From a virus: a stretch of 24,535 nt of DNA. Positions 1 through 19,767 of the stretch are shown in pieces. Numbering within the stretch: the stretch's first letter is position 1; each line of letters starts with the position of its first letter. The notes beneath the pieces were generated by a model. The model worked only from the letters and a program-made list of their open reading frames with translations, searched no databases and had not been told where the DNA came from. A program made the translations under genes and the position numbers. Location of the stretch: positions 1 to 24,535 of IMG/VR virus record IMGVR_UViG_3300035204_000524; one strand, written 5' to 3'.

Positions 1-1359
1 CTCAATTACACAATAAGAAATACAGGATCGTTTTTTGATGAAGGTGGACTTGCTGTTTATCATAATGGTAAGGAATTAGCAAGCGATATTAATGCTGGAA
101 CATATAAGTTGCGTAATAACAATTTCAATATGTTTGTGGGATATGCTCCCGGCTATCCCGCATATGATAATTTTAGAGATAACCCCGAGTACTCTAGATC
201 ATTTCCTTTATATGGAAGAACAGAGGCTTTAAGTGTGTGGGGGAGAAGTTTGACTGATGATGAGATAGCCCGTCTTTGGAACAACGGAGATGGTGTTGGA
301 TATGATTGGGTAATAAACAACACAGATAATGACATCATATTAGATCTATCAGACGGTAATGTTCAAACCTTAGTTGCGCCATTTAATATAACAGATATTA
401 ATGTGGGAGAGATTTCAGGTCTGTCCGGAGAATTTGATCCATATGTTGATGAGAATAAATATGGTGAAGCAATATCAATGACTCTTTTCATTGAAGGGGG
501 ACCACTGGGAATTGAGTTTTCTAGCAAGTTTAAATTCAACGAAAGTCCTCCATTCACCAAAGGAACAGACATAATAAATCTACTAACCATCGATGGAGGC
601 GAATCGTGGTTTGCTACCGTTTCTGCTTGTGGTTATGGTATAACAGATGATACATTGAGTGATTATGGTTCTTGTTGTTATTTGAATGGTAGTTGTGATG
701 AATTTATAACAGAAGAATATTGCAACAGAAATGGTGGTAACTTCAATGAAAACTTTAGTTGTTTCACATCCAATTGTGGGTTTTATCAGAGAGGTGCTTG
801 CTGCACAAACTATAATGTCCTAACTGGTCAATCATATTGTGTATCCAATGTAACGCTATACGAATGTGATTTGTTTGGTGGGATATTCTGGCTAGGAGAA
901 GCATGTGGTATAGCAGGATTTAATTGTCCAAACCCATGCACCTCTGAAGAAGCATCAGTGGGTGCGTGTTGCCAAGGGCCGGATAGTTGTGAAGACACTA
1001 CGCTGGAAGTGTGCGATAGTAGAAATGGTGTGTTCTTGGGTGTAGGAATGTTTTGTAGTGATAGTGATTGTTGCACTGCATATGGATCGGGCGGGGGTCA
1101 AGAGAATATTCCAGGAGCATGGTGTTATTTACAAAACGTAAATGGTGAATATGAAGTGACTTGTTTGGAGGGTTACTTTAGCGAACCACCCGGAGTGGAT
1201 GATGGTGAACAACCACCTGTCTTTATGGGCGTGGGAACAAAGTGTCATGATCCAGAAACAGATTGCACTTGCGTTTTACCAAATCCAGATGCAGTTCCTA
1301 TTGGACTTCCACGCAACACAACTCCTCCGAGCGGCCCAAGAAATAGGAGCAGAAACTGA
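1..1359 (+). CDS. LamG-like / Cys-repeat virion protein, 5' truncated by window edge
   Basis: The frame is open from base 1, giving 452 visible residues, so the true start lies outside the window; a TTG at 109 is in frame but is unlikely to be the start. The first roughly 100 residues look like the C-terminal part of a LamG/concanavalin-A-like beta sandwich, with the typical closing pattern LSVWGRSLTDDEIARLWN (nt 226-282). From about nt 667 there are at least three Cys-rich units starting GSCC or GACC (nt 667, 793, 961). Each has paired cysteines, a further C, a GG-F or NGVF turn, and a closing C; a more diverged unit follows at about 1114-1269. LamG domains bind glycans in other proteins, so a surface or fibre role is inferred. 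It overlaps the next gene by one base (TGATG), which implies translational coupling. No T4 counterpart is recognised. Confidence 0.75.
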   Translation, partial: LNYTIRNTGSFFDEGGLAVYHNGKELASDINAGTYKLRNNNFNMFVGYAPGYPAYDNFRDNPEYSRSFPLYGRTEALSVWGRSLTDDEIARLWNNGDGVGYDWVINNTDNDIILDLSDGNVQTLVAPFNITDINVGEISGLSGEFDPYVDENKYGEAISMTLFIEGGPLGIEFSSKFKFNESPPFTKGTDIINLLTIDGGESWFATVSACGYGITDDTLSDYGSCCYLNGSCDEFITEEYCNRNGGNFNENFSCFTSNCGFYQRGACCTNYNVLTGQSYCVSNVTLYECDLFGGIFWLGEACGIAGFNCPNPCTSEEASVGACCQGPDSCEDTTLEVCDSRNGVFLGVGMFCSDSDCCTAYGSGGGQENIPGAWCYLQNVNGEYEVTCLEGYFSEPPGVDDGEQPPVFMGVGTKCHDPETDCTCVLPNPDAVPIGLPRNTTPPSGPRNRSRN

Positions 1360-2036
1360 TGTCTAAGACACTGAAACACATACCATTAAAATCGTATAGT
1401 ATAATATCCGACAATAAAGATCCAAATGGAACATGTTGCTTAGAAGATGGTAGACGAGTGTATTCTAAAAAATCATTTTGTGATAGTTGTGTTAATTCAT
1501 ACTTTCAGGAGAATCAATACCCTGATGTCGATGGATATCCCTGTTATGGTTACTATGGAGACACAACCGAAACAGGATTGTGTTTATATTCTAACTTAAC
1601 AAACAGAAACTATAGAAATCAATCAATAGATAATTCGTTTTCGTGCAGCAGTGTGCGTGTTGGTAATTTTTCACTCGCGGGACAAACAAACTTTTGCAAC
1701 TTTGAGACAATATTTAGTAACAAGGATATTCAATATCGGGATAAATACGAATTTAGATTTATTGCTTTACCCGATTGGTCAATTTGCGGAAACCAAACAG
1801 GATCCTCCGTCCCCATGAATTTTTTAGAGAAAGACTTTGCTAAGGATTCTATACAAAAGAAGAATGTGTTTGTCTACAACACACTAGAAACTATGAGTCC
1901 TCTGAAAAAATTAAAGCAGAAGAACGAGGGGGACATAATAGATATTGATGAGAAGTATGCATTTCAAATAGTTCGATCCCTGGACAACAAATCCAGAAAA
2001 ACAGCAACAATACGAATAAGAGAATTGGGTGAATAA
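1359..2036 (+). CDS. Small Cys-rich protein with one GxCC unit, unknown function
   Basis: This 225-residue protein has its ATG sharing one base with the stop of the gene before. It carries a single GTCC-type unit near residues 24-43 (GTCCLEDGRRVYSKKSFC), matching the units in both neighbours, and further cysteines up to about residue 145. The C-terminal third is Lys-rich and lacks cysteine (KKLKQKNEGDIIDIDEKYAF, then a basic stretch). No signal peptide or membrane segment is visible. It is coupled to the next gene by a one-base overlap (TAATG at 2034-2038). Position between two large repeat proteins suggests that it is co-made with them, perhaps as an adaptor or chaperone; that is inference. 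I do not recognise the family beyond the shared repeat. Confidence 0.7.
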   Translation: MSKTLKHIPLKSYSIISDNKDPNGTCCLEDGRRVYSKKSFCDSCVNSYFQENQYPDVDGYPCYGYYGDTTETGLCLYSNLTNRNYRNQSIDNSFSCSSVRVGNFSLAGQTNFCNFETIFSNKDIQYRDKYEFRFIALPDWSICGNQTGSSVPMNFLEKDFAKDSIQKKNVFVYNTLETMSPLKKLKQKNEGDIIDIDEKYAFQIVRSLDNKSRKTATIRIRELGE

Positions 2037-5000
2037 TGTCCATACAATTTAGAACCAGAAATGTAACATACCAACCAAGTGGATTCACTGGTGCATGTTG
2101 TTATGCTATCGGTGAAAATAAAGTATGTAATGATTCTGATAGTTTAAATTTTAAAGAATGTTCTGATTTAGGTGGGGTGTTTTTGGGTTCTGGTACAACC
2201 TGTGTAAATGGAGATTCAACGTGCGATACAATACCAATAAACACTCCATCAGTTCTGGGTGCGTGTTGTGCGTGTGATGGTACATGTGCGGATAATGTGA
2301 CAGAAGATTATTGTAACATTAAAAAACTCGATCCCACAACTCCCACACATAAATTCCACATGGGAGAGACATGCCAATCTGTGGATTGTGAAAGTCAGAC
2401 TCTTTTTGATTGTTGTGCAGATGGAATTGTGTTTGCTGGAATTTGTACGAATGAGTCTTGTAGGGAGATTGGTGGGGCAACTGCTGATTTTGGTTCTGGT
2501 TGTGACGGAAGTAATTTGATTCCTGCATCATCAGGCATTTGCTGCAATGTCACTTCTACTGGTTATGACACTCCGTGTCAATATATGGACAACACCGATT
2601 CCCGGTGGGGAGGAAATCCAGAAGCATTTTGTATTGCGATAGGTGGAACGTTCTTTGATGATGAAGTATGCGGAAGTGAAGTATGCCAAAGAGACGAAAG
2701 AATAAATCATGCATGTTGCAGACACAACGGATGCTTCTCTTTACCGGAAGATGTGTGTCTAAATTCGTATGGTGTATATTTGGGTCAGGTTGGATGTGAG
2801 AACACCAACTGCCAAAATATAGTGTTCGGTGCGTGTTGTCATTCTAACATTTGTAACATGACAGATGCTACGACTTGTAATCAACTTCAGGGCGAGTTCT
2901 TTGCGGGGTATGATTGTACATCAACAATGCTCCAAAATTGTGCAAAACAAGAACCTGTTGGTAAGTGCTGTAGAACTATAGGTGAACCAAAATGTGTTGA
3001 TTCTGTTACAGAACTTGGTTGTAGAGAAATAGTTCAGAATGATTATCTAAACAGCGAATGGATTTTTGTTGAGGGGGGTGATTGTCATGAATGCCAAGAC
3101 GGGTATGCATGCTATGATAGGGATGATGAAATAGGATCATGTTTATATACCTTCGCTCCTCTTGGATCTGAAATGAATCAAAACAACAAATTAGCGTTCA
3201 TGACAACTCGGAAGTGGTGTGAAGTTATATCGGGAGATTGGAACAGCACCATACAAATGAAACACATATTCAAGGGGTGTGGTATTACACCCGAGGATCT
3301 AAAGTCAGCATACAATAGTTTCCCTGGCGACAATCCAGATGGTTATGCATATGATGATGTGGGTTCTGCTTCTTATGGGTATCCCGTGGGTTCATGTTCG
3401 ATCAATGGGTTGTGTAATAATTTTTACACAAGAAGCAACTGCATAAATTCTAATGGTGTCTATATGGGTAACGGAACTCATTGTTATAATTCGGTTCTCA
3501 CTGATATGAGCGGTGATTCTTCTGGTGAGGGCTCGTCTGTACTTGATCCCACATATAGCAACTACACTTCATTCATTAAACGAGGAACACCGGGAAGATT
3601 TATTGACTTTATATCTTCATCATATGAAGATGATGTTGAATCTTTACCCACGTTCTATTACAGGATAAAAGAAGACATCATGCCTCCTATGAGATTCCCT
3701 ACTGATAGCATGAAGATTAGAAAACCAAACCACAACAAAGCGGTTAAGGCGATTGAAGGTAAGGAATTGCTGGTTCGGAATAATGCACCATTGGGAAAAA
3801 TTAGAACGCTGTCATTAATTGAAGGAGACAGCAGAGGAAGATATAGAATGTTGGATATCCATGATCTGAATATGAATTTGCTGGATGGGATTAAAAAGTT
3901 AGATGTGATGCCAGATAGCGGATTCAATTTAGAAAACGTTTCTTCTTCTGTGGAGGTTCTTAATGTACAAGGAAAGAAGAATCCATTTAACGTTCGCGTG
4001 AGTAATAAGTCCGATGGTACAGGAAGTCAATATGAGATAAATGGTATTCCTAGAGATAAATTATTCTTATATGTTGGTCAGACGTATGTGTTTGACCTCT
4101 CTGATTCGTCTTTGCGTCCATCCGATGATTATAACACACACCACACTCTAAGATTTTCTGAAACGTCAAATGGACTTCATGACGGAGGAATTCCTTATGA
4201 GACGAACGTTTCTGTTGGTGAAGTTGGTAAGGAAGGATCACATGCGACAATAACCATTACGGAATCGACTCCAAATAGATTGTATTACTATTGCAGTAAT
4301 CATATAAACATGGGTGGTGAGATTGAAATAAGAAAGCATTATCAGAACGATTCTTTAAATTTATCATCTAAAACCAATCTTAGAAAATTATTTGTTAATG
4401 ACACCACATTAGACACACTAACCTTACCATCTTCTGATTCTCTAGAAGTGGTGGATTGTTCTGGAAATAATATTTCTTCTGTTGATATATCAAGACACCC
4501 ATACATATATTCCTTGAATATATCATACAATAAAATAGGTGCAATTGATCTGAGTGGGTTTGGACAATTTAATGGTGATGGTTCTTTAGATGTTTCAAAC
4601 AATAAAATAACATCTTTAAACATTCCCACATTACATCAAGGGACTGGATTGCGTCAACTTGATGCAAGTGATAACCCGTTGGTAATGCTGGATATTAAGG
4701 ATGATACTAAAATTGACATTTTGGATATATCATACACAAATCTTTCCTATCTTTCGATGCCTAAAAATACAGGAGTCAAAGAACTTCACATGAACAACTG
4801 CAAGATAAATTCCATATCCTTACAGGGGTCGGTTACAGAAGTATTCGGAGAATGTACTTACATCGATGCCTCAAATAATAAACTGAGTTATATTCCATTC
4901 ATTGATGCGGATAAAAATATCATACCTGCAAACTTAACGCAATTGAATCTTGCTGGAAATAATATTGGAACGGCAGATGTCATTATACTCTTTAACGTTT

Positions 5001-5143
5001 TGAAGAAATATGCTACAACTTACAATACAAGTAAATTGACAATTGACTTATCTGGCAATCCTGCTACAATAAACCAAGCCTCTTTGACAGATTTGAAACA
5101 TGAGTGGGGCAGCAAATTAAGTATCATTGGTAATATAACATAA
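2036..5143 (+). CDS. Multidomain virion protein: GxCC repeats, cupredoxin-like domain, leucine-rich repeats
   Basis: The protein has 1035 residues and three visible parts. (1) Residues 1-490 hold about eight Cys-rich units opening at GACC 19, GACC 75, DCC 126, GICC 167, HACC 225, GACC 265, GKCC 309 and GSC 452, several with a GG-F-G turn. (2) Residues about 650-767 form a cupredoxin-like domain: YVGQTYVFDLSDSS, then HHTLRFS with His703, then YYYCSNHINMGG with Cys753, His756 and Met759, in the arrangement of type 1 copper ligands. (3) Residues about 774-1031 are leucine-rich repeats of the LxxLDxSxNxI type (LDVSNNKITSLNI, LNLAGNNIG). No signal peptide is seen. The place just upstream of the neck genes suggests a fibre, whisker or baseplate surface component. 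The cupredoxin-like domain resembles one I know from marine phage structural proteins; copper binding is untested. Confidence 0.75.
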   Translation: MSIQFRTRNVTYQPSGFTGACCYAIGENKVCNDSDSLNFKECSDLGGVFLGSGTTCVNGDSTCDTIPINTPSVLGACCACDGTCADNVTEDYCNIKKLDPTTPTHKFHMGETCQSVDCESQTLFDCCADGIVFAGICTNESCREIGGATADFGSGCDGSNLIPASSGICCNVTSTGYDTPCQYMDNTDSRWGGNPEAFCIAIGGTFFDDEVCGSEVCQRDERINHACCRHNGCFSLPEDVCLNSYGVYLGQVGCENTNCQNIVFGACCHSNICNMTDATTCNQLQGEFFAGYDCTSTMLQNCAKQEPVGKCCRTIGEPKCVDSVTELGCREIVQNDYLNSEWIFVEGGDCHECQDGYACYDRDDEIGSCLYTFAPLGSEMNQNNKLAFMTTRKWCEVISGDWNSTIQMKHIFKGCGITPEDLKSAYNSFPGDNPDGYAYDDVGSASYGYPVGSCSINGLCNNFYTRSNCINSNGVYMGNGTHCYNSVLTDMSGDSSGEGSSVLDPTYSNYTSFIKRGTPGRFIDFISSSYEDDVESLPTFYYRIKEDIMPPMRFPTDSMKIRKPNHNKAVKAIEGKELLVRNNAPLGKIRTLSLIEGDSRGRYRMLDIHDLNMNLLDGIKKLDVMPDSGFNLENVSSSVEVLNVQGKKNPFNVRVSNKSDGTGSQYEINGIPRDKLFLYVGQTYVFDLSDSSLRPSDDYNTHHTLRFSETSNGLHDGGIPYETNVSVGEVGKEGSHATITITESTPNRLYYYCSNHINMGGEIEIRKHYQNDSLNLSSKTNLRKLFVNDTTLDTLTLPSSDSLEVVDCSGNNISSVDISRHPYIYSLNISYNKIGAIDLSGFGQFNGDGSLDVSNNKITSLNIPTLHQGTGLRQLDASDNPLVMLDIKDDTKIDILDISYTNLSYLSMPKNTGVKELHMNNCKINSISLQGSVTEVFGECTYIDASNNKLSYIPFIDADKNIIPANLTQLNLAGNNIGTADVIILFNVLKKYATTYNTSKLTIDLSGNPATINQASLTDLKHEWGSKLSIIGNIT

Positions 5144-5159: not shown

Positions 5160-5645
5160 ATGGAAGATAAAAGTTTTGCGAAATCATCATTGAAAGATAA
5201 AATGGGAATGATGAAAAATTTTGCATCGGCAATCGTATCGCGTGGTGTTAATAATAAAAAAATTGACGAGGCAACAAAGCAACTTAGGGTGTTGAGTTGC
5301 TTTGGGAACGATGACGAACTTATACCCTGTGAATATTTAAGAGATAGTAAAACTGCGGGTAAGAATTACTGCGGCGGGTGTGGTTGCGGTGACCGAAAGG
5401 GTACTTGGTTGATGTCGGATGGGGATGAATATAGTAAATTAGATTATCCAAAGTTATATTGTCCGTTGAATATGCCAGGTTTTGCAAACTATAAGTCTGC
5501 GGAAGATGATGAGGGTGGTGATACTCCAACTAGAAGATTTTATATAGAAAACATGAAACCAGAAGATATTCGTAATATTGAGGTGTCTCTTCCCGATTCC
5601 CCAGATCCCCCAAAAGAGCCAACACCAAAAGATAAAAAAGAATAA
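5160..5645 (+). CDS. Conserved-looking Cys-cluster protein, unknown function
   Basis: This 161-residue protein starts at ATG 5160, with GGAGA (5144-5148) and GGG upstream. Cysteines at about 47, 57, 71, 74, 76 and 101 include a tight C-GGCGCG cluster (residues 71-77). They are followed by a SKLDYPKLYCPLNMPGF segment (about 92-108) that looks structurally constrained. The layout fits a metal-binding fold such as a zinc ribbon, or less likely an iron-sulfur site. The N-terminus is basic and helical; the C-terminal 25 residues are Pro- and Lys-rich and probably disordered. It sits between the Cys-repeat genes and gene 13. I recall similar proteins in marine T4-like phages but no assigned role. 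Confidence 0.7.
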   Translation: MEDKSFAKSSLKDKMGMMKNFASAIVSRGVNNKKIDEATKQLRVLSCFGNDDELIPCEYLRDSKTAGKNYCGGCGCGDRKGTWLMSDGDEYSKLDYPKLYCPLNMPGFANYKSAEDDEGGDTPTRRFYIENMKPEDIRNIEVSLPDSPDPPKEPTPKDKKE

Positions 5646-5697: not shown

Positions 5698-6513
5698 ATG
5701 CCAGCAATTACCACTAAGGATGGTTTAATTGATTATGCTTTCAGACGGCTGGGCGCACCCGTCATTGAAATAAATGTTGATAGACAACAAGCAGAAGAAC
5801 GTCTTGAGGATGCTATTCAGTTTTTCACTGAGCGTCATTTTGATGGTGTCGAGAAGGCATTGTTTAATTACGCAGTCACACAGGACGATATAGATCAGGG
5901 ATTCCTTAACGTTGACAATTTTGGTGCCATCAATGGTGCTAGTGGTGAGGGAGAGGGGGACACCCCAACAGGAAAAGACGTAGTAAGCGTAGTTCGTGTT
6001 TTTAGATTTGGTGCAGGTACATCTAACATGTTTAATGTTAGATATCAAATGGCATTGAATGATTATTTTGGAATTAATCGAAATCTGTTTAATGGTACTG
6101 CTATGGGTATAGCATCCTATTCTAGCACCAAAAGATATATCAGTCTTATTGAACAACAATTTGAACCAGAGAAACAGATCCAATTCAATAAAGTCACTAA
6201 CAAATTACACATTGACATGGACTGGAATGATGATGTGACAGTAGGTAAGAATTTACTCATTGAGGCTTTTGTTGCTATAAATCCAGATATTTTTGGTGAA
6301 ATATATAATGACATACTATTGAAAAAATACTTCACCGCGTTGTTGAAGAAGCAATGGGGAGACAACCTTTCCAAATTTGACAACGTAGCACTTCCTGGTG
6401 GAGCAGTAATGAGGGGTGGTCAGATTGTAGCGGAAGCAAATGAAGAAATAATGAGGTTAGAGCAGGAAGTACTTCTGACATACGAACTGCCTATTAACTT
6501 TACGGTAGGATAA
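5698..6513 (+). CDS. 13: Neck protein gp13 (head completion)
   Basis: This 271-residue homologue of T4 gp13 (309 residues) forms, with gp14, the neck that seals the packaged head and joins the tail. The N-terminus has the family pattern DYAFRRLGAPVIEINVD followed by a helix RLEDAIQFFTERHFDG (about residues 50-65). A C-terminal region with MDWNDDVTVGKNLLIEAFVA and KYFTALLKKQWGDNLSKF (about residues 213-228) is also typical. A short Gly/Glu/Asp-rich loop lies near residues 80-97. The ATG at 5698 is supported by GGGAG (5686-5690), seven bases upstream. Gene 14 begins one base after its stop and gene 15 follows, as in T4. Confidence 0.9.
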   Translation: MPAITTKDGLIDYAFRRLGAPVIEINVDRQQAEERLEDAIQFFTERHFDGVEKALFNYAVTQDDIDQGFLNVDNFGAINGASGEGEGDTPTGKDVVSVVRVFRFGAGTSNMFNVRYQMALNDYFGINRNLFNGTAMGIASYSSTKRYISLIEQQFEPEKQIQFNKVTNKLHIDMDWNDDVTVGKNLLIEAFVAINPDIFGEIYNDILLKKYFTALLKKQWGDNLSKFDNVALPGGAVMRGGQIVAEANEEIMRLEQEVLLTYELPINFTVG

Positions 6514-6514
6514 T

Positions 6515-7438
6515 ATGACAACTAATCCTTATTTCAAGAAATATGTCGGTGATGCCGACATTGTTGAAGACCTGACCATCGAAACCATCAAATCGATGGG
6601 TCAAGATTTTATCTATATTCCTCGAACGTTGGTCAATTTAGACGAATTGTTTGGAGAAGACACGATATCGCAATTTGATGATGGTTATGAAATTGAAATG
6701 TATATTCAGAATGTTGATGGGTTTGAGGGCGAAGGAGATATCCTTAGTAAGTTTGGAATTGAAATAAAAGATAGCATGACTTTGGTTGTGTCTCGTAGAC
6801 GATTTGAAGAAACTATATCAACATATGAGGACATCAAAAGACCCCGCGAGGGAGATTTGATATATTTTCCTTTAAGTAAGACATTATTTGAAATTAGATT
6901 TGTTGAACATGAAAATCCATTCTATCAATTGGGAAGACTCTACACATATGTCCTATCTTGTGATGTGTTCACCTATTCCCACGAAGACATCGATGTCGGT
7001 ATTAGTGATATTGATAATGTAGAAGAAGAACGAAAACAATTTATGATTAACTTATCTTTAGGTGATCGGGTATCTGGTATCGAATATACCAATTTCTTTG
7101 CCGGTGAAACTATCTTCCAAGTCTCAGGGACCACAGGAGGGACGCTAGGAGCCGCCACAGCGACTGCTACGGCGATTAATTGGAATCTTACGGGTAAGAC
7201 CCTCGGAATCACAAACGTCGTAGGAACGCTGAATACTGACCCCACAGAGAGTGTCATAGGTGCAGTTTCTGGGGCAGAATACTTCATCACTGCTACCGAA
7301 ACGACCACCATCATAATACCACAGGAACCTGTAGTTGATGATAATTCTGGTCAGAATGAAGACTTCCAGTTTATTGGAGATAGGGACAATATATTTGACT
7401 TTACTGACGTTGATCCTTTCAGTGAGGGAGAATTTTAG
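6515..7438 (+). CDS. 14: Neck protein gp14 with marine-phage beta insert
   Basis: This 307-residue homologue of T4 gp14 (256 residues) is the partner of gp13 in the neck. Residues 1-170 follow the family: NPYFKKYVGDADIVEDLTIE, IKSMGQDFIYIPR, then a segment ending NPFYQLGRLYTYVLSCDVFTYS. The extra length is a Thr/Ala/Gly-rich stretch at about residues 190-270 (GETIF, GAATATATAINWN, LGITNVVGTL, GAVSGAEYF). It resembles a small beta module I know from marine phage structural proteins, and it is richer in GC than the sequence around it. The acidic tail ends DVDPFSEGEF. The stop TAG shares its G with the GTG start of gene 15. Confidence 0.88.
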   Translation: MTTNPYFKKYVGDADIVEDLTIETIKSMGQDFIYIPRTLVNLDELFGEDTISQFDDGYEIEMYIQNVDGFEGEGDILSKFGIEIKDSMTLVVSRRRFEETISTYEDIKRPREGDLIYFPLSKTLFEIRFVEHENPFYQLGRLYTYVLSCDVFTYSHEDIDVGISDIDNVEEERKQFMINLSLGDRVSGIEYTNFFAGETIFQVSGTTGGTLGAATATATAINWNLTGKTLGITNVVGTLNTDPTESVIGAVSGAEYFITATETTTIIIPQEPVVDDNSGQNEDFQFIGDRDNIFDFTDVDPFSEGEF

Positions 7439-8280
7439 TGTTTACACATTTCTACAAAGAATCAATTCGTAAGACCGTGATCGGCTTTGGTTCCCTATTC
7501 AACAATATCCTAATATCCAGAAAGAATTCGGATGGTACGGAGAAGGAACAAATACGAGTTCCTTTAGCGTATGGTGCTAAAGAAAAGTTTATCAGAAGAT
7601 TAATGGAGACAAGTAGTATTTCAGATGATAATAAGGTCATTGAATTGCCTCGTATGTCATTTGAGATCACCAACTACATTTACGACTCTTCGAGAAAAAG
7701 AAATTCATTAACAAGACGCACGGTGCCGAGTTCCGATTCAACTAAAAGTGAATTCGTATACGCTGAGGTTCCGTATGATATCTCATTTATTGTTCAAACA
7801 TATGTCAGAAACATGGACGATGCTCTCCAGATAACAGAGCAAATACTACCATACTTTACACCCGACTTCACAATGACAATCAACTTTAACGATATTAATA
7901 AAAAAGTGGATGTTCCTATTACACTAAACGACGTTACATTATCTGAAGAATATGAAGGTAACTTTGATATTAGACGATTAATAACTACCCAATATACGTT
8001 CACTGCTAAGACTTACATATTCGGACCAACAAAAGAGCAGAAAAGTGTTCGTTCCGCAGACATTGTATTCTTTGACTTTAATGATGAGGATAATTGGGAC
8101 GTTCCAAGAGGCACTGGTGGAACTGGTCCTGCTGGTGCTGCGAATAGATTTGTTTATGGAGTTAGTGGAGATGTCAACCGAGATGATTTCAATTATACAG
8201 ACGATATAAATACTAATAAGTTTGTTGGTGGTTCTAGTGGTTCTGGTGGAATAGACATTTATGGAAATACATATGCGTGA
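7438..8280 (+). CDS. 15: Tail sheath stabiliser / completion protein gp15
   Basis: This 280-residue homologue of T4 gp15 (272 residues) forms the ring that caps the contracted or extended sheath and receives the head. Recognisable features are the N-terminal HFYKESIRKTVIGFGSLFNN, then RVPLAYGAKEKFIRRL, the region PRMSFEITNYIYDSSRK, and the C-terminal RRLITTQYTFTAKTYIFGP. The start is GTG at 7438, overlapping the gene 14 stop by one base (TAGTG). The last roughly 50 residues are a Gly/Asn/Asp-rich extension (GTGGTGPAGAAN, then GGSSGSGG) that is probably flexible. Gene 16 starts inside its 3' end. Confidence 0.9.
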   Translation: MFTHFYKESIRKTVIGFGSLFNNILISRKNSDGTEKEQIRVPLAYGAKEKFIRRLMETSSISDDNKVIELPRMSFEITNYIYDSSRKRNSLTRRTVPSSDSTKSEFVYAEVPYDISFIVQTYVRNMDDALQITEQILPYFTPDFTMTINFNDINKKVDVPITLNDVTLSEEYEGNFDIRRLITTQYTFTAKTYIFGPTKEQKSVRSADIVFFDFNDEDNWDVPRGTGGTGPAGAANRFVYGVSGDVNRDDFNYTDDINTNKFVGGSSGSGGIDIYGNTYA

Positions 8281-8764
8281 TAGAAAAAAAGAAACAGATG
8301 AAGCAATTTCAAAAGCATTAGATGTAGCATTTGAGGTCACTAATGAAATAGTACCGGAAATTGTTGAGTCGGATGCAGTTCCTCCTGTGGGAGATACTGA
8401 TATAATTCTAAGTGATGCATGTCGCAAGGTTGACTTTCAAGATGCTAGAACCAATCTGCTGGATTTGATTGGAACAGGTAAAGTTGCCATAGAGGGTATA
8501 TTGAACGTTGCTGAAAATGGAGATGCGCCTAGAGCATATGAAGTAGTTTCTCAGTTACTGAAGACAGTATCAGAAATGAATAATGATCTGATCGGTATTC
8601 ACCAAAAAGCATCTGACATTAATAAGATTGAATATAAGCAAAATAATACGACCAATAATTCCATTTATGTGGGATCGACCAGTGATCTTCAAGACTTGAT
8701 AAACCAGTCTAGAAGTAGAAACAAAGCACTTCAGAATGAAATAGAACATACAGATGACGGATAA
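8261..8764 (+). CDS. 16: Terminase small subunit gp16
   Basis: This 167-residue homologue of T4 gp16 (164 residues) is the DNA-recognition and regulatory subunit of the packaging motor. The central segment FQDARTNLLDLIGTGKVAIE and a following helix pair (VVSQLLKTVSEMNNDLIGIHQ) match the coiled-coil core of the family. The later NSIYVGSTSDLQDLI matches the T4 segment that contains VFMGSPTELMDEI. The start is uncertain: ATG 8261 (GGTGGA at 8245-8250) overlaps gene 15 by 20 bases, while ATG 8273 overlaps by 8 and has a closer GGA. The end overlaps gene 17 by 11 bases, so 15, 16 and 17 are probably translated as a coupled set. Confidence 0.88.
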   Translation: MEIHMRDRKKETDEAISKALDVAFEVTNEIVPEIVESDAVPPVGDTDIILSDACRKVDFQDARTNLLDLIGTGKVAIEGILNVAENGDAPRAYEVVSQLLKTVSEMNNDLIGIHQKASDINKIEYKQNNTTNNSIYVGSTSDLQDLINQSRSRNKALQNEIEHTDDG

Positions 8765-10430
8765 GCGTGGTGGATATTTAGGAAACTCAAATCTTAAGCC
8801 TTCCGGGGTGGATATTCAGTTCACACCAGAACAGGTGGAAGAATATATAAAATGTGCCAATGATCCTGTGTATTTTATTGAGAAGTATATTAAAATTGTG
8901 CATCTAGATTTGGGTCTTGTTCCTTTTAATCTGTATGATTATCAAAAAGAACTTGTCAATGTCATCCACGACAACCGATTTACAATATCAAAACTTCCCA
9001 GGCAGAGTGGTAAATCTACTACAATTGTATCATACCTTTTACATTATGTGTTATTTAATCAAAGCATGTCAGTCGCCATTCTTGCTAACAAACAAACAAC
9101 AGCAAGAGAAATTTTAAGTAGGCTGAAATTAACATATGAATATCTTCCCCTCTGGTTGCAGCAAGGTATCATTGAATGGAATAAAGGTAGTATTGAGTTG
9201 GAGAATGGTTCTAAGATTCTTGCATCATCCACCTCTGCCAGTGCAATTCGTGGTGGATCATTCAACTGCATCATGCTTGACGAATTTGCCCACGTTCCGA
9301 ACAACATAGCAGAAGAATTTTTCAGTTCGGTTTATCCTACTATTACTTCCGGTCAAAGCACAAAAGTAATGATGGTATCCACCCCCAATGGTCTGAATAT
9401 GTTCTATAGGTATTGGGTGGGTGCAAACAGGAAGAAGGGCGAACCGGGTAAGAATGAATATGTGTCATTTGAAGTGCATTGGAACCAAGTACCCCTATAT
9501 CCAGGAGGACCACTTAGAGGAAATGCGTGGAAAGAAGAAACTATTGCAAACACAAGTGAGGAACAGTTTCAAACGGAATTTGAATGCGATTTCCTCGGCA
9601 GCAGCGCAACTCTCATAGCATCGTCAAAACTACACACAATGGTACATAAGACTCCAAAAATATCCAATAGAGAAGGTGTTGATGTCTATGAAGATCCGAA
9701 GAAAGATCACACATACATCATATGTGCAGATCCATCTAGGGGTGTTGGTAAGGACTACAGCGCGTTGACAGTGGTTGATATTCATAAAACTCCGTATAGA
9801 GTAGTTGCGAAATACCGAAACAATCTCATCTCGCCCATGTTGTTTCCGACCGTTATTCGTTCATTGGCAAAACAATACAACAGAGCATATGTTCTTGTTG
9901 AAATTAATGATATTGGAGCGCAGGTTGCTGATGTATTGAAGGAAGATTTGGAATACGAAAATGTTCTTATGTCTTCTTACATGGGCAGAAAGGGTCAAAC
10001 AATCACCGGGGGGTTTAGTGGGAAAAGCGCACATTATGGAGTGCGCACGACCATCCCTGTGAAAAAACTAGGATGTTCGGTTTTAAAATCTCTAATTGAA
10101 AATGATCGGATTATTATTGAAGACGCTGACATAATACATGAACTTACAACCTTTGTCGCAAAAAAGCAATCATATGAGGCGGATGATAGTTACAACGACG
10201 ATTTAGTGATGACTCTTGTGTTGTTTTGTTGGTTGACTCGTCAGGATTATTTCAAAAATTTGACCGATGTTGATATTAGAACAGACATATATAAAGAAGA
10301 GATAAGTGATTTAGAAGAAGAAATTTCATTCTTTGGAATAATAGACGATGGTGTTGAGGAAAGTAGTTATTGGGATGGTACAGATCGTTGGGAGAAGAAA
10401 GATCGTTGGGAGAAGACAGATATTTGGTGA
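8754..10430 (+). CDS. 17: Terminase large subunit gp17 (packaging ATPase and nuclease)
   Basis: This 558-residue protein (T4 gp17 has 610) drives DNA into the prohead and cuts concatemers. The N-terminal ATPase shows Walker A LPRQSGKST (residues 81-89), Walker B CIMLDE (172-177, Asp176 and catalytic Glu177), and a coupling motif MVSTPNG (207-213). The C-terminal RNase H-like nuclease shows CADPSRG with Asp326, LVEIND with Glu383, and NDDLV with Asp482/Asp483, the expected acidic triad. The last 20 residues carry a duplicated DRWEK motif, encoded by an 18-bp tandem repeat. The start at ATG 8754 lies inside gene 16. This is the most secure identification in the window. Confidence 0.96.
   Translation: MTDKRGGYLGNSNLKPSGVDIQFTPEQVEEYIKCANDPVYFIEKYIKIVHLDLGLVPFNLYDYQKELVNVIHDNRFTISKLPRQSGKSTTIVSYLLHYVLFNQSMSVAILANKQTTAREILSRLKLTYEYLPLWLQQGIIEWNKGSIELENGSKILASSTSASAIRGGSFNCIMLDEFAHVPNNIAEEFFSSVYPTITSGQSTKVMMVSTPNGLNMFYRYWVGANRKKGEPGKNEYVSFEVHWNQVPLYPGGPLRGNAWKEETIANTSEEQFQTEFECDFLGSSATLIASSKLHTMVHKTPKISNREGVDVYEDPKKDHTYIICADPSRGVGKDYSALTVVDIHKTPYRVVAKYRNNLISPMLFPTVIRSLAKQYNRAYVLVEINDIGAQVADVLKEDLEYENVLMSSYMGRKGQTITGGFSGKSAHYGVRTTIPVKKLGCSVLKSLIENDRIIIEDADIIHELTTFVAKKQSYEADDSYNDDLVMTLVLFCWLTRQDYFKNLTDVDIRTDIYKEEISDLEEEISFFGIIDDGVEESSYWDGTDRWEKKDRWEKTDIW
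10383..10418 (+). repeat. 18-bp tandem duplication at the 3' end of gene 17
   Basis: Two 18-bp units lie side by side, 10383-10400 and 10401-10418, identical except for one base near the end (GATCGTTGGGAGAAGA plus AA or CA). They are in frame and encode DRWEKK and DRWEKT. The sequence then continues with a degenerate partial copy (GATATTTGG, giving DIW). Confidence 0.9.
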
Positions 10431-12341: not shown

Positions 12342-12872
12342 ATGAGCATTGATAATATCATAGGTGCGGCTGGATCACAAAAAGTACTAAGACCTACTTT
12401 TTTCAAAGTGACTCCCCCTGCTGATGGACATCTTTCTTCTTTATCATCACACGGTGACATAAAAATCAAAGCAGTTACAACTCCAACGTCAACATTATCC
12501 GCCATTGATATACCCTACAAAGGTCGTAAAATTAAAACGGCTGGCACTAGAACGTTTGACACATGGACAATAACAATCCTATATGCGAACGATGATCTTC
12601 GTCGTGAGTTTCAAAAATGGATACAAGATATACAACATTCGGAGAATATAGGTCAACCCTCGGCCACGGCCAGTAAATTATTTGAAGATTGGACTATCAC
12701 TTTGTTGAACCTAGATGGTACTGATTCCGCACATATATGGAAACTGGTGGGGTGCTGGCCAGCAGAACTGGGTGAAGTTACACTAGACCAAAGTGATGGT
12801 GACGCAATCTCAGAATTTACTGTAACAATGCAGTATACATACTTCAGCAAAGACGAAATAACAACAGGATAA
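12342..12872 (+). CDS. 19: Tail tube protein gp19
   Basis: This 176-residue protein (T4 gp19 has 163) forms the inner tail tube through which DNA passes. Family features are LRPTFFKV near the N-terminus, then DIPYKGRKIKTAGTRTFDTW (about residues 56-75), TITILYANDDLRREFQKWI, and a C-terminal ELGEVTLDQSDGDAISEFTV. AGGAG (12328-12332) precedes ATG 12342 by nine bases. A paralogue follows after five bases. Which of the two is the major tube subunit cannot be settled from sequence alone; this one directly follows the sheath gene, as gene 19 does in T4. Confidence 0.88.
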   Translation: MSIDNIIGAAGSQKVLRPTFFKVTPPADGHLSSLSSHGDIKIKAVTTPTSTLSAIDIPYKGRKIKTAGTRTFDTWTITILYANDDLRREFQKWIQDIQHSENIGQPSATASKLFEDWTITLLNLDGTDSAHIWKLVGCWPAELGEVTLDQSDGDAISEFTVTMQYTYFSKDEITTG

Positions 12873-12877
12873 CCATT

Positions 12878-13420
12878 ATGGCAATAGATCAAGTTTTATT
12901 AGGCTTAATAGACAACCAATTTGTTCGTCCTTCACTATTCAAAATATCAATTGATGATGTGGTGGTCGGTGGGGAGCAACAGGTATTCTGGGTTAAATCT
13001 GCATCATTGCCAGCATCATCCGTGGGTGTAATTGAAGTACCTTATCATGGTCGTAAAGTGTACATGCCTGGTGATAGAACATTTTCTGATTGGCAGATGA
13101 CGGTTATATATGCTGATGAAGATGCTAACACTTTATATGATAAATTTTTATCATGGATGAATGGGATACAAACTCCGGCGGGAGTTGGGGTAGCGAGAGA
13201 ACAGGCTAAAACGGTGACGGTTGATGTTTTAAGTCCAAACTCAAATATATCAGACGAGAACATTAACATTATAGATACATACACTCTATATGGGGCATTT
13301 CCTATTGAAATCGGTTCTATGGATTTAAGTCAGGAAACAAGTGATTCGTTTATGGAGTTTACAGTGTCCCTATCATATTCTTATCATATGATGACTAATG
13401 CAGATGATGCAGATGGGTGA
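12878..13420 (+). CDS. Second gp19-like tail tube protein
   Basis: This 180-residue paralogue of the gene just upstream follows the same plan: FVRPSLFKISIDD, then EVPYHGRKVYMPGDRTFSDW aligned with DIPYKGRKIKTAGTRTFDTW. Next come MTVIYADEDANTLYDKFLSWM, GAFPIEIGSMDLSQE and EFTVSLSYSY. The two proteins have clearly diverged in the middle. T4 has one gp19 plus baseplate proteins with related tube folds (gp48, gp54), so this copy could be a second tube subunit or a tube-initiating or terminating ring. The start at ATG 12878 lies five bases after the previous stop. No strong ribosome binding site is seen, which suggests reinitiation. Confidence 0.85.
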   Translation: MAIDQVLLGLIDNQFVRPSLFKISIDDVVVGGEQQVFWVKSASLPASSVGVIEVPYHGRKVYMPGDRTFSDWQMTVIYADEDANTLYDKFLSWMNGIQTPAGVGVAREQAKTVTVDVLSPNSNISDENINIIDTYTLYGAFPIEIGSMDLSQETSDSFMEFTVSLSYSYHMMTNADDADG

Positions 13421-19230: not shown

Positions 19231-19767
19231 ATGGCAGATTCATCAATCGGTGGTGTGACAGCGGGAAACATGGACCCGTCGTTAGCACAACCAATAACAG
19301 ACAATTATCTAAAAAGCAATCAATTTAAATTCTCAATTGATCGATGTCCACTCTTGACATACTTCGTACAGAGTGTATCATTTCCTAATATATCTGTGAC
19401 AGAACAGGAATTTCCCACAAGATATGCAACCCCTGTGTATATTCCTGCCAATAGAGCAGAACATGGTGAGTTGAGTGTTCAAATGTTGATTGATGAAAAC
19501 CTAAGAAACTGGTCAGAAATTTACGATTGGATTGAAGAAGCAGTTCCCTTGCGGGAAATTGGCAACGACCCTACCCAATATCTAAGCACCGCAAACATGC
19601 TCATGTTGAATAGTGCATATAAACCGGTACTTAGTGTGGAGTTTACTAATGTATTTCCAAGTAGTTTAGGAGAAATACCATTCTCTTCCATTTCTACCAT
19701 GACAGAACCCATCTCAGTCCAAGTTTCTTTTAAATATACAGGATATGTCATAGAAAGGCTTACATGA
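19231..19767 (+). CDS. 3: Tail-tube-like protein, probably tail completion gp3
   Basis: This 178-residue protein (T4 gp3 has 176) has a tube-type fold signature distinct from the two gp19-like proteins. It includes LKSNQFKFSIDRCPLLTYFV (about 29-48), QSVSFPNISVTEQEFPTRYA, GELSVQMLIDENLRNWSEIY, and the C-terminal strand VQVSFKYTGYVI. Its place between gene 23 and uvsY is where marine T4-like phages carry gene 3, whose product caps the head end of the tail tube. The symbol rests mainly on position and length; a baseplate tube protein (gp48- or gp54-like) is the alternative. It has a very good ribosome binding site, AAGGAGG (19215-19221). It overlaps uvsY in an ATGA. Confidence 0.6.
   Translation: MADSSIGGVTAGNMDPSLAQPITDNYLKSNQFKFSIDRCPLLTYFVQSVSFPNISVTEQEFPTRYATPVYIPANRAEHGELSVQMLIDENLRNWSEIYDWIEEAVPLREIGNDPTQYLSTANMLMLNSAYKPVLSVEFTNVFPSSLGEIPFSSISTMTEPISVQVSFKYTGYVIERLT

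Follow-up and report, generated by a model that had tools for sequence, protein, structure and literature searches.

The window analysed here is a stretch of 24,535 nucleotides, positions 1 to 24,535 of the IMG/VR virus record IMGVR_UViG_3300035204_000524, and the subject of this report is its third open reading frame (ORF3). ORF3 opens with ATG and runs in a single frame of 1035 residues (2036-5143, plus strand); its start overlaps the stop of ORF2 by one base and the long neighbouring ORFs all lie on the same strand. A sequence-only reading had described a phage protein in which Cys-rich repeats, a cupredoxin-like domain and leucine-rich repeats (LRRs) follow one another, and both the coordinates and the module order were found to be correct. 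ORF3 is interpreted below as a modular host-attachment adhesin with a putative copper site, encoded by a marine T4-like myovirus that has not been cultured; this interpretation is given a probability of about 0.6. The features of the gene are as follows.

2036..5143, plus strand: ORF3, CC + cupredoxin + LRR protein of 1035 amino acids (ORF list; homologues in viral contigs L002, L167 and L169)
2036..2059, plus strand: N-terminal anchor motif MSIQFRTR, conserved among T4-like contigs in whichever gene holds this place
2090..3094, plus strand: Cys-rich units 1-7 (residues 19-353), one CC pair each; the unit also occurs in other viral contigs
3389..3484, plus strand: eighth Cys unit (residues 452-483), GSC replacing GACC (CC-unit profile match, domain E 1e-4)
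3503..3985, plus strand: Cys-free middle region (about residues 490-650), weak LRR-like strands in a low-confidence prediction
3992..4336, plus strand: cupredoxin-like domain (residues 653-767), from profile, AlphaFold2 (AF2) model and structural matches
4142..4144, plus strand: H703, putative copper ligand 1 (domain alignments)
4292..4312, plus strand: ligand loop C753-x2-H756-x2-M759, putative copper ligands 2-4 (domain alignments)
4337..5128, plus strand: LRR solenoid with C-terminal cap (residues 768-1031), from Pfam, profile comparison and predicted fold

Domain organisation of ORF3

The same module order occurs as one continuous ORF in three other viral contigs, L002 (92% identity), L167 (51%) and L169 (49%); L002 was the sole find of single-sequence searches of the viral contigs, and L167 and L169 were reached through the neighbouring ORF4. 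None of the 50,697 isolated-phage records searched showed the CC + cupredoxin + LRR architecture. Three unrelated-looking modules in a single ORF of a metagenomic contig might be taken for unrelated genes fused during assembly or binning. Since the module order recurs without interruption in these three contigs, a chimera was ruled out and its likelihood is negligible; ratios of nonsynonymous to synonymous substitution (dN/dS) of 0.05-0.11 along the entire ORF likewise speak against it. In the comparison of the window with L002, dN/dS is 0.054 for the CC part, 0.047 for the middle region, 0.108 for the cupredoxin-like domain and 0.100 for the LRR part, that is, strong constraint over the whole of ORF3, relaxed about twofold in the two C-terminal parts.

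Residues 1-490 hold 50 of the 54 Cys residues of ORF3. CC pairs stand at residues 21, 77, 126, 169, 227, 267 and 311, and the unit at 452-483 is devoid of one. The bare count of CC is not unusual, being matched by 2,684 of 20,000 shuffled sequences, while the six [GH]xCC motifs were matched by none of the 20,000. Thus, the Cys-rich repeats of the sequence-only reading are present, and its range of 1-490 for GxCC units is slightly generous because the last CC pair lies at residue 312. An alignment-based search for these units gave no conserved stretch, so a degenerate DNA pattern was used, which located the unit in 79 viral-contig stretches, often several times per protein; CC units also precede ORF4 and gp13 in L098, L112, L125, L138 and L160. 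The pattern did not find the unit in the 50,697 isolated-phage records, and the Cys-rich base of ORF3 has no sequence match among isolated phages. Cellular genomes do contain it and, among the matches listed, these are mostly Planctomycetota (Phycisphaerae), in large repeat proteins, and the unit is in frame at each of the 80 loci. In one Phycisphaerae contig (L251), CC units share an open frame with a multicopper-oxidase-like C-terminus (HCHILEHEDHEMM). The six Cys keep their spacing in large repeat proteins, which suggests that the units are disulphide-braced mini-domains; AF2 draws a hairpin, a helix and a strand in several of them at low confidence.

At the other end of the protein, Pfam LRR_4 matches ORF3 in five stretches (E 6.6e-12; 45.7 bits against a cut-off of 27), and a solenoid is predicted at a predicted local distance difference test score (pLDDT) of about 87, with LRR proteins among its PDB matches. 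The leucine-rich repeats proposed for about 774-1031 are thus borne out, the strict form LxxLDxSxN occurring once (872); looser cores occur four times, against none in 20,000 shuffles. Profile comparison of the window LRR with the LRR ends of its relatives gave E 2.2e-11 with the C-terminal cap included, and the similarity is one of homology beyond a generic repeat. The LRR matches include internalin-like proteins, and ORF3 does not belong to the internalin J family (NF033187), with 32.5 bits against a family cut-off of 1700. An insertion of the cupredoxin-like domain into an LRR array was considered and is not claimed: the layout is suggestive, and the similarity of the middle region to LRR relatives is weak (hhalign E 0.07 at a probability <1%; E 0.17 for L224).

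The cupredoxin-like domain and its putative copper ligands

A cupredoxin-like profile matches ORF3 at about 653-766, and the AF2 model of residues 643-770, built with 37 relatives, is a beta-barrel at pLDDT 91, in agreement with the domain proposed at about 650-767. Foldseek ranks the three-domain copper nitrite reductase 2dv6 first among PDB entries (E 6.5e-4) and rusticyanin next. With VIA-align the model superposes on residues 25-136 of 2dv6, the N-terminal cupredoxin domain, at Z 9.7 (100 residues, 2.6 Å), and on a rusticyanin at Z 8.6. The N-terminal cupredoxin domain of 2dv6 carries type-1 copper (PMC7201279). Searches of PDB sequences with the domain returned chance matches, for example antibodies, and were set aside.

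Copper in cupredoxins is typically coordinated by two His, one Cys and one Met (PMC4059628). H703, C753, H756 and M759 follow the canonical type-1 order with the C-x2-H-x2-M spacing. His, Cys, His and Met (HCHM) occupy the four positions in 87 of the 88 distinct domains compared, which were retrieved with patterns that included C753 and H756, H703 and M759 lying outside them; the one exception is a second copy in L012, where NSSY stands in their place and all four ligands are gone. Among isolated phages, HCHM is found in 13 of 17 full domains, a set picked by tblastn similarity in which the window is counted as one. The fibre proteins of the other four keep the domain and have lost most or all ligands, the positions reading IE-- in P-RSM1 (L373), HY-- in P-RSM4 (L377), RDVY in ACG-2014b (L372) and R--- in S-RIM2 (L378), where a dash denotes an unaligned end. 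Loss as a group suggests that the four residues act together, as in a metal site. The complete type-1 ligand set of the domain is probably a copper site, and occupancy by copper is plausible.

The domain is widespread. It was found in 229 of the 50,697 phage records, named after Synechococcus, Prochlorococcus, Cyanophage, Pelagibacter or Methylophilales or as marine or uncultured, and in at least 578 viral contigs. The PHROGs that contain it are annotated as tail fiber, baseplate wedge, fibre connector and virion structural protein. Among the carriers with an annotation are a gp7-like baseplate protein and a fibre connector, and cyanophage tail proteins are among the BFVD matches to the model. 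ORF3 has no whole-length match to a known fibre family, the fibre PHROGs matching its cupredoxin-like part only. The window is therefore not alone in having such a domain in a structural protein of a phage; what is rare is the combination of modules. The model also matches three small 'beta-sandwich proteins' in BFVD (A0A481Z6J5, A0A481Z7Q7 and A0A481YVH3; query template modelling score 0.68-0.72), whose records are named after pithovirus and marseillevirus.

Gene neighbourhood and exchange of the C-terminal ends

The genes around ORF3 are the following.

1..1359, plus strand: ORF1, truncated at its 5' end by the window edge; a Laminin_G_3-like part (sub-threshold, E 0.07), then CC units
1359..2036, plus strand: ORF2, 225 amino acids, one CC unit
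5160..5645, plus strand: ORF4, 161 amino acids, six invariant Cys, marker of the virus group
5698..10430, plus strand: gp13, gp14, gp15, gp16 and gp17, T4-like (neck, tail sheath stabiliser, terminase)

ORF3 and then ORF4 precede gp13-gp17, with tail tube proteins further on, so that the placement next to the neck genes noted earlier holds. The terminase shares 58% identity with its counterparts in Synechococcus T4-like phages, and Synechococcus phage S-CREM1 has the same core order, the gene directly upstream of its gp13 being annotated as a tail fiber by similarity only. In T4 the equivalent position, ahead of gene 13, is that of wac. Gene order, the terminase and S-CREM1 together place ORF3 where fibre or whisker genes lie, in a T4-like virus that is a distant relative of the cyanophages.

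ORF4 was not found in the 50,697 phage records and served as an anchor for searches of the viral contigs, in which at least 600 stretches matched and 80 loci were kept; 87 ORF4 loci, some of them near-identical, were compared. A Cys-rich CC gene that begins with MSIxFR[TS]R or a close variant is present in 53 of the 87, and in 22 of the remaining 34 the upstream sequence is too short to judge the anchor. The C-terminal ends are Lcl_C-like at 59 loci, a count that uses a profile built from these same sequences, LRR at 14 and cupredoxin-like at four (the window, L002, L167 and L169, all of them also with LRRs); no end was recognised at five and none is visible at five. Curated Pfam models give fewer, Lcl_C in 7 and LRR_4 in 8 of 56 members. 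At L098, L138 and L174 the end domain is encoded as a separate following gene. The Lcl_C domain forms the end of an adhesin by which Legionella recognises glycosaminoglycans (PMC11162425). A base that stays fixed while the ends are exchanged is typical of receptor-binding proteins, and suggests one here.

Several other observations were made in these regions. Relatives of ORF1 in L098, L112 and L138 have collagen-like GPTGPTG stretches. ORF4 precedes gp13 throughout the virus group, its invariant Cys residues in the aligned relatives are 47, 57, 71, 74, 76 and 101, and it is possibly a small metal-binding protein. In L170, L174 and L177, the gene directly before ORF4 encodes an LRR protein of its own, whose N-terminal part is long; a protease-like reading of the GDS-S motif in L174 and L177 (GDSSSP in L174) was not retained, L174 having no Pfam protease or PHROG match. 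Further downstream in the window, two gp19-like tail-tube paralogues stand in tandem (12342-12872 and 12878-13420; 29% identity, E 4e-27), a third tube-like protein occupies the position of T4 gp3 (19231-19767), and the terminase C-terminus carries a short 18-base tandem repeat (10380-10421, DRWEKK).

Probable function and relation to known systems

We infer that ORF3 is located in the virion, carries disulphides, holds copper and binds a receptor. The constant N-terminus MSIQFRTR would dock onto the particle; the CC units would form a chain of small disulphide-braced modules, a stalk that the disulphides may stiffen after the particle emerges from the reducing cytoplasm; the cupredoxin domain would bind a copper ion through its complete His/Cys-His-Met set; and the C-terminal LRR solenoid would touch a host surface protein or glycan. 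The role of the copper could be structural or redox-sensing, or the site could be a lure for metal receptors, in the manner of the iron proposal for HxH motifs discussed below. The sequence-only reading had also proposed an adhesin, and it is supported in part: comparison favours the adhesin through the tail-fibre position, the constant anchor and the variable C-terminal end, and the N-terminal part is not confidently modelled. Neither of the outcomes that would have refuted that reading was seen, since both a barrel and a solenoid are predicted and the search of isolated phages gave no protein of identical architecture. The recurrence of the module order in four contigs under purifying selection, and the presence of the cupredoxin-like domain in tail and baseplate proteins, also speak for the adhesin.

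Several observations weigh against this interpretation. The N-terminal half of ORF3 is modelled by AF2 at pLDDT 20-70, and the gene position alone fits a neck whisker too. Conservation of C753 and H756 was partly selected for, as the retrieval patterns contained both, and Y751, G713 and S708 are as conserved as the ligands, so that conservation alone is no proof of a copper site. The Pfam Copper-bind model gives sub-threshold matches only, in 6 of the 37 relatives (best E 0.014), and none in the window copy.

The latter points would suit an adhesin of the same kind whose cupredoxin domain is a structural beta-sandwich spacer, the His, Cys, His and Met being kept for packing and the domain being metal-free in the particle. 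The fold appears to be useful without copper, since it persists after ligand loss in the Kyanoviridae fibres of P-RSM1, P-RSM4, ACG-2014b and S-RIM2, and this is a real possibility, though the balance is against it: the four residues are distant in sequence and yet retained or lost as a group, their C-x2-H-x2-M spacing is classical, and the best structural matches are copper proteins. ORF3 could instead be a neck whisker or collar fibre that senses or retracts the fibres or makes a second host contact at the neck, as the neck genes follow directly downstream of its gene and T4 wac lies before gene 13. Such a role is considered unlikely, as the equivalent in S-CREM1 is annotated as a tail fiber, albeit by similarity only, and the exchanged Lcl_C-like and LRR ends suit receptor binding better than a fixed part of the neck. 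Very improbable is a late protein that is no part of the virion and, once released or displayed, targets neighbouring cells or the surface of the host; the occurrence of CC units in large cellular repeat proteins, mainly of Planctomycetota among the matches listed, and the internalin-like LRR matches would agree with it, and the location of the gene inside a structural run, its fixed anchor and the relatives of its cupredoxin domain in tail and baseplate PHROGs would not.

Under the adhesin interpretation, ORF3 and its relatives make up a group of T4-like attachment proteins in which the Cys-rich base is fixed and the end is swapped, being Lcl_C-like, LRR or cupredoxin with LRR. The most interesting lead is a widespread type-1 copper ligand set, kept or lost group-wise, in tail proteins of marine phages. 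That their tails commonly carry type-1 copper centres, and that adhesion, receptor choice or the closing of disulphides in Cys-rich stalks depends on the metal or its redox state, is a tentative and rather doubtful extension. The finding makes a redox-metal site in phage adhesins open to test, and the uncultured virus is not needed for this, as the isolated cyanophages S-TIM5, Syn1 and S-RIM14 have the domain and P-RSM1, P-RSM4, ACG-2014b and S-RIM2, with most or all ligands lost, are natural metal-free controls. No open-licence paper that places a cupredoxin or a copper site in a phage tail was found. The copper site would match, for another metal, the iron hypothesis put forward for marine phages, the 'Ferrojan/Trojan Horse', in which iron-binding HxH motifs are proposed in tail fibres such as gp37 of T4 and those of Alteromonas phage R22Y (PMC11705849). 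A metal site in a phage tail adhesin is proposed in both cases, iron at HxH motifs in the one and a putative type-1 copper site in a cupredoxin fold in ORF3.

Among known systems, ORF3 resembles the T4-like tail fibres with a fixed N-terminus and exchanged tips in gene position, modular layout and the pairing of a constant anchor with a variable end, and differs from these receptor-binding proteins in its Cys-rich CC base, which is not found in isolated phages, and in its LRR or Lcl_C-like ends. The LRR solenoid is shared, by sequence and predicted fold, with InlJ (3bz5) and SDS22 (6mky); unlike these internalin- and SDS22-type proteins, ORF3 has its own C-terminal cap, common to other viral LRR ends. 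With the type-1 copper cupredoxins (the N-terminal domain of 2dv6, rusticyanin, amicyanin and pseudoazurin) it shares the fold and the His...Cys-x2-His-x2-Met pattern at 13-19% identity, in a phage tail context and with a copper site that is putative. A further likeness is to the homologous domains of PHROGs 30742, 677, 693, 708, 6005 and 27200 (for example the S-TIM5 virion structural protein and the P-SSM2 tail fiber-like protein), which are 36-49% identical, have the same four putative ligands in most members and occur in a tail or baseplate context. The carriers examined there are without CC units and without an LRR end, unlike ORF3, and the copies of the window type are set apart by a short insertion ahead of H703.

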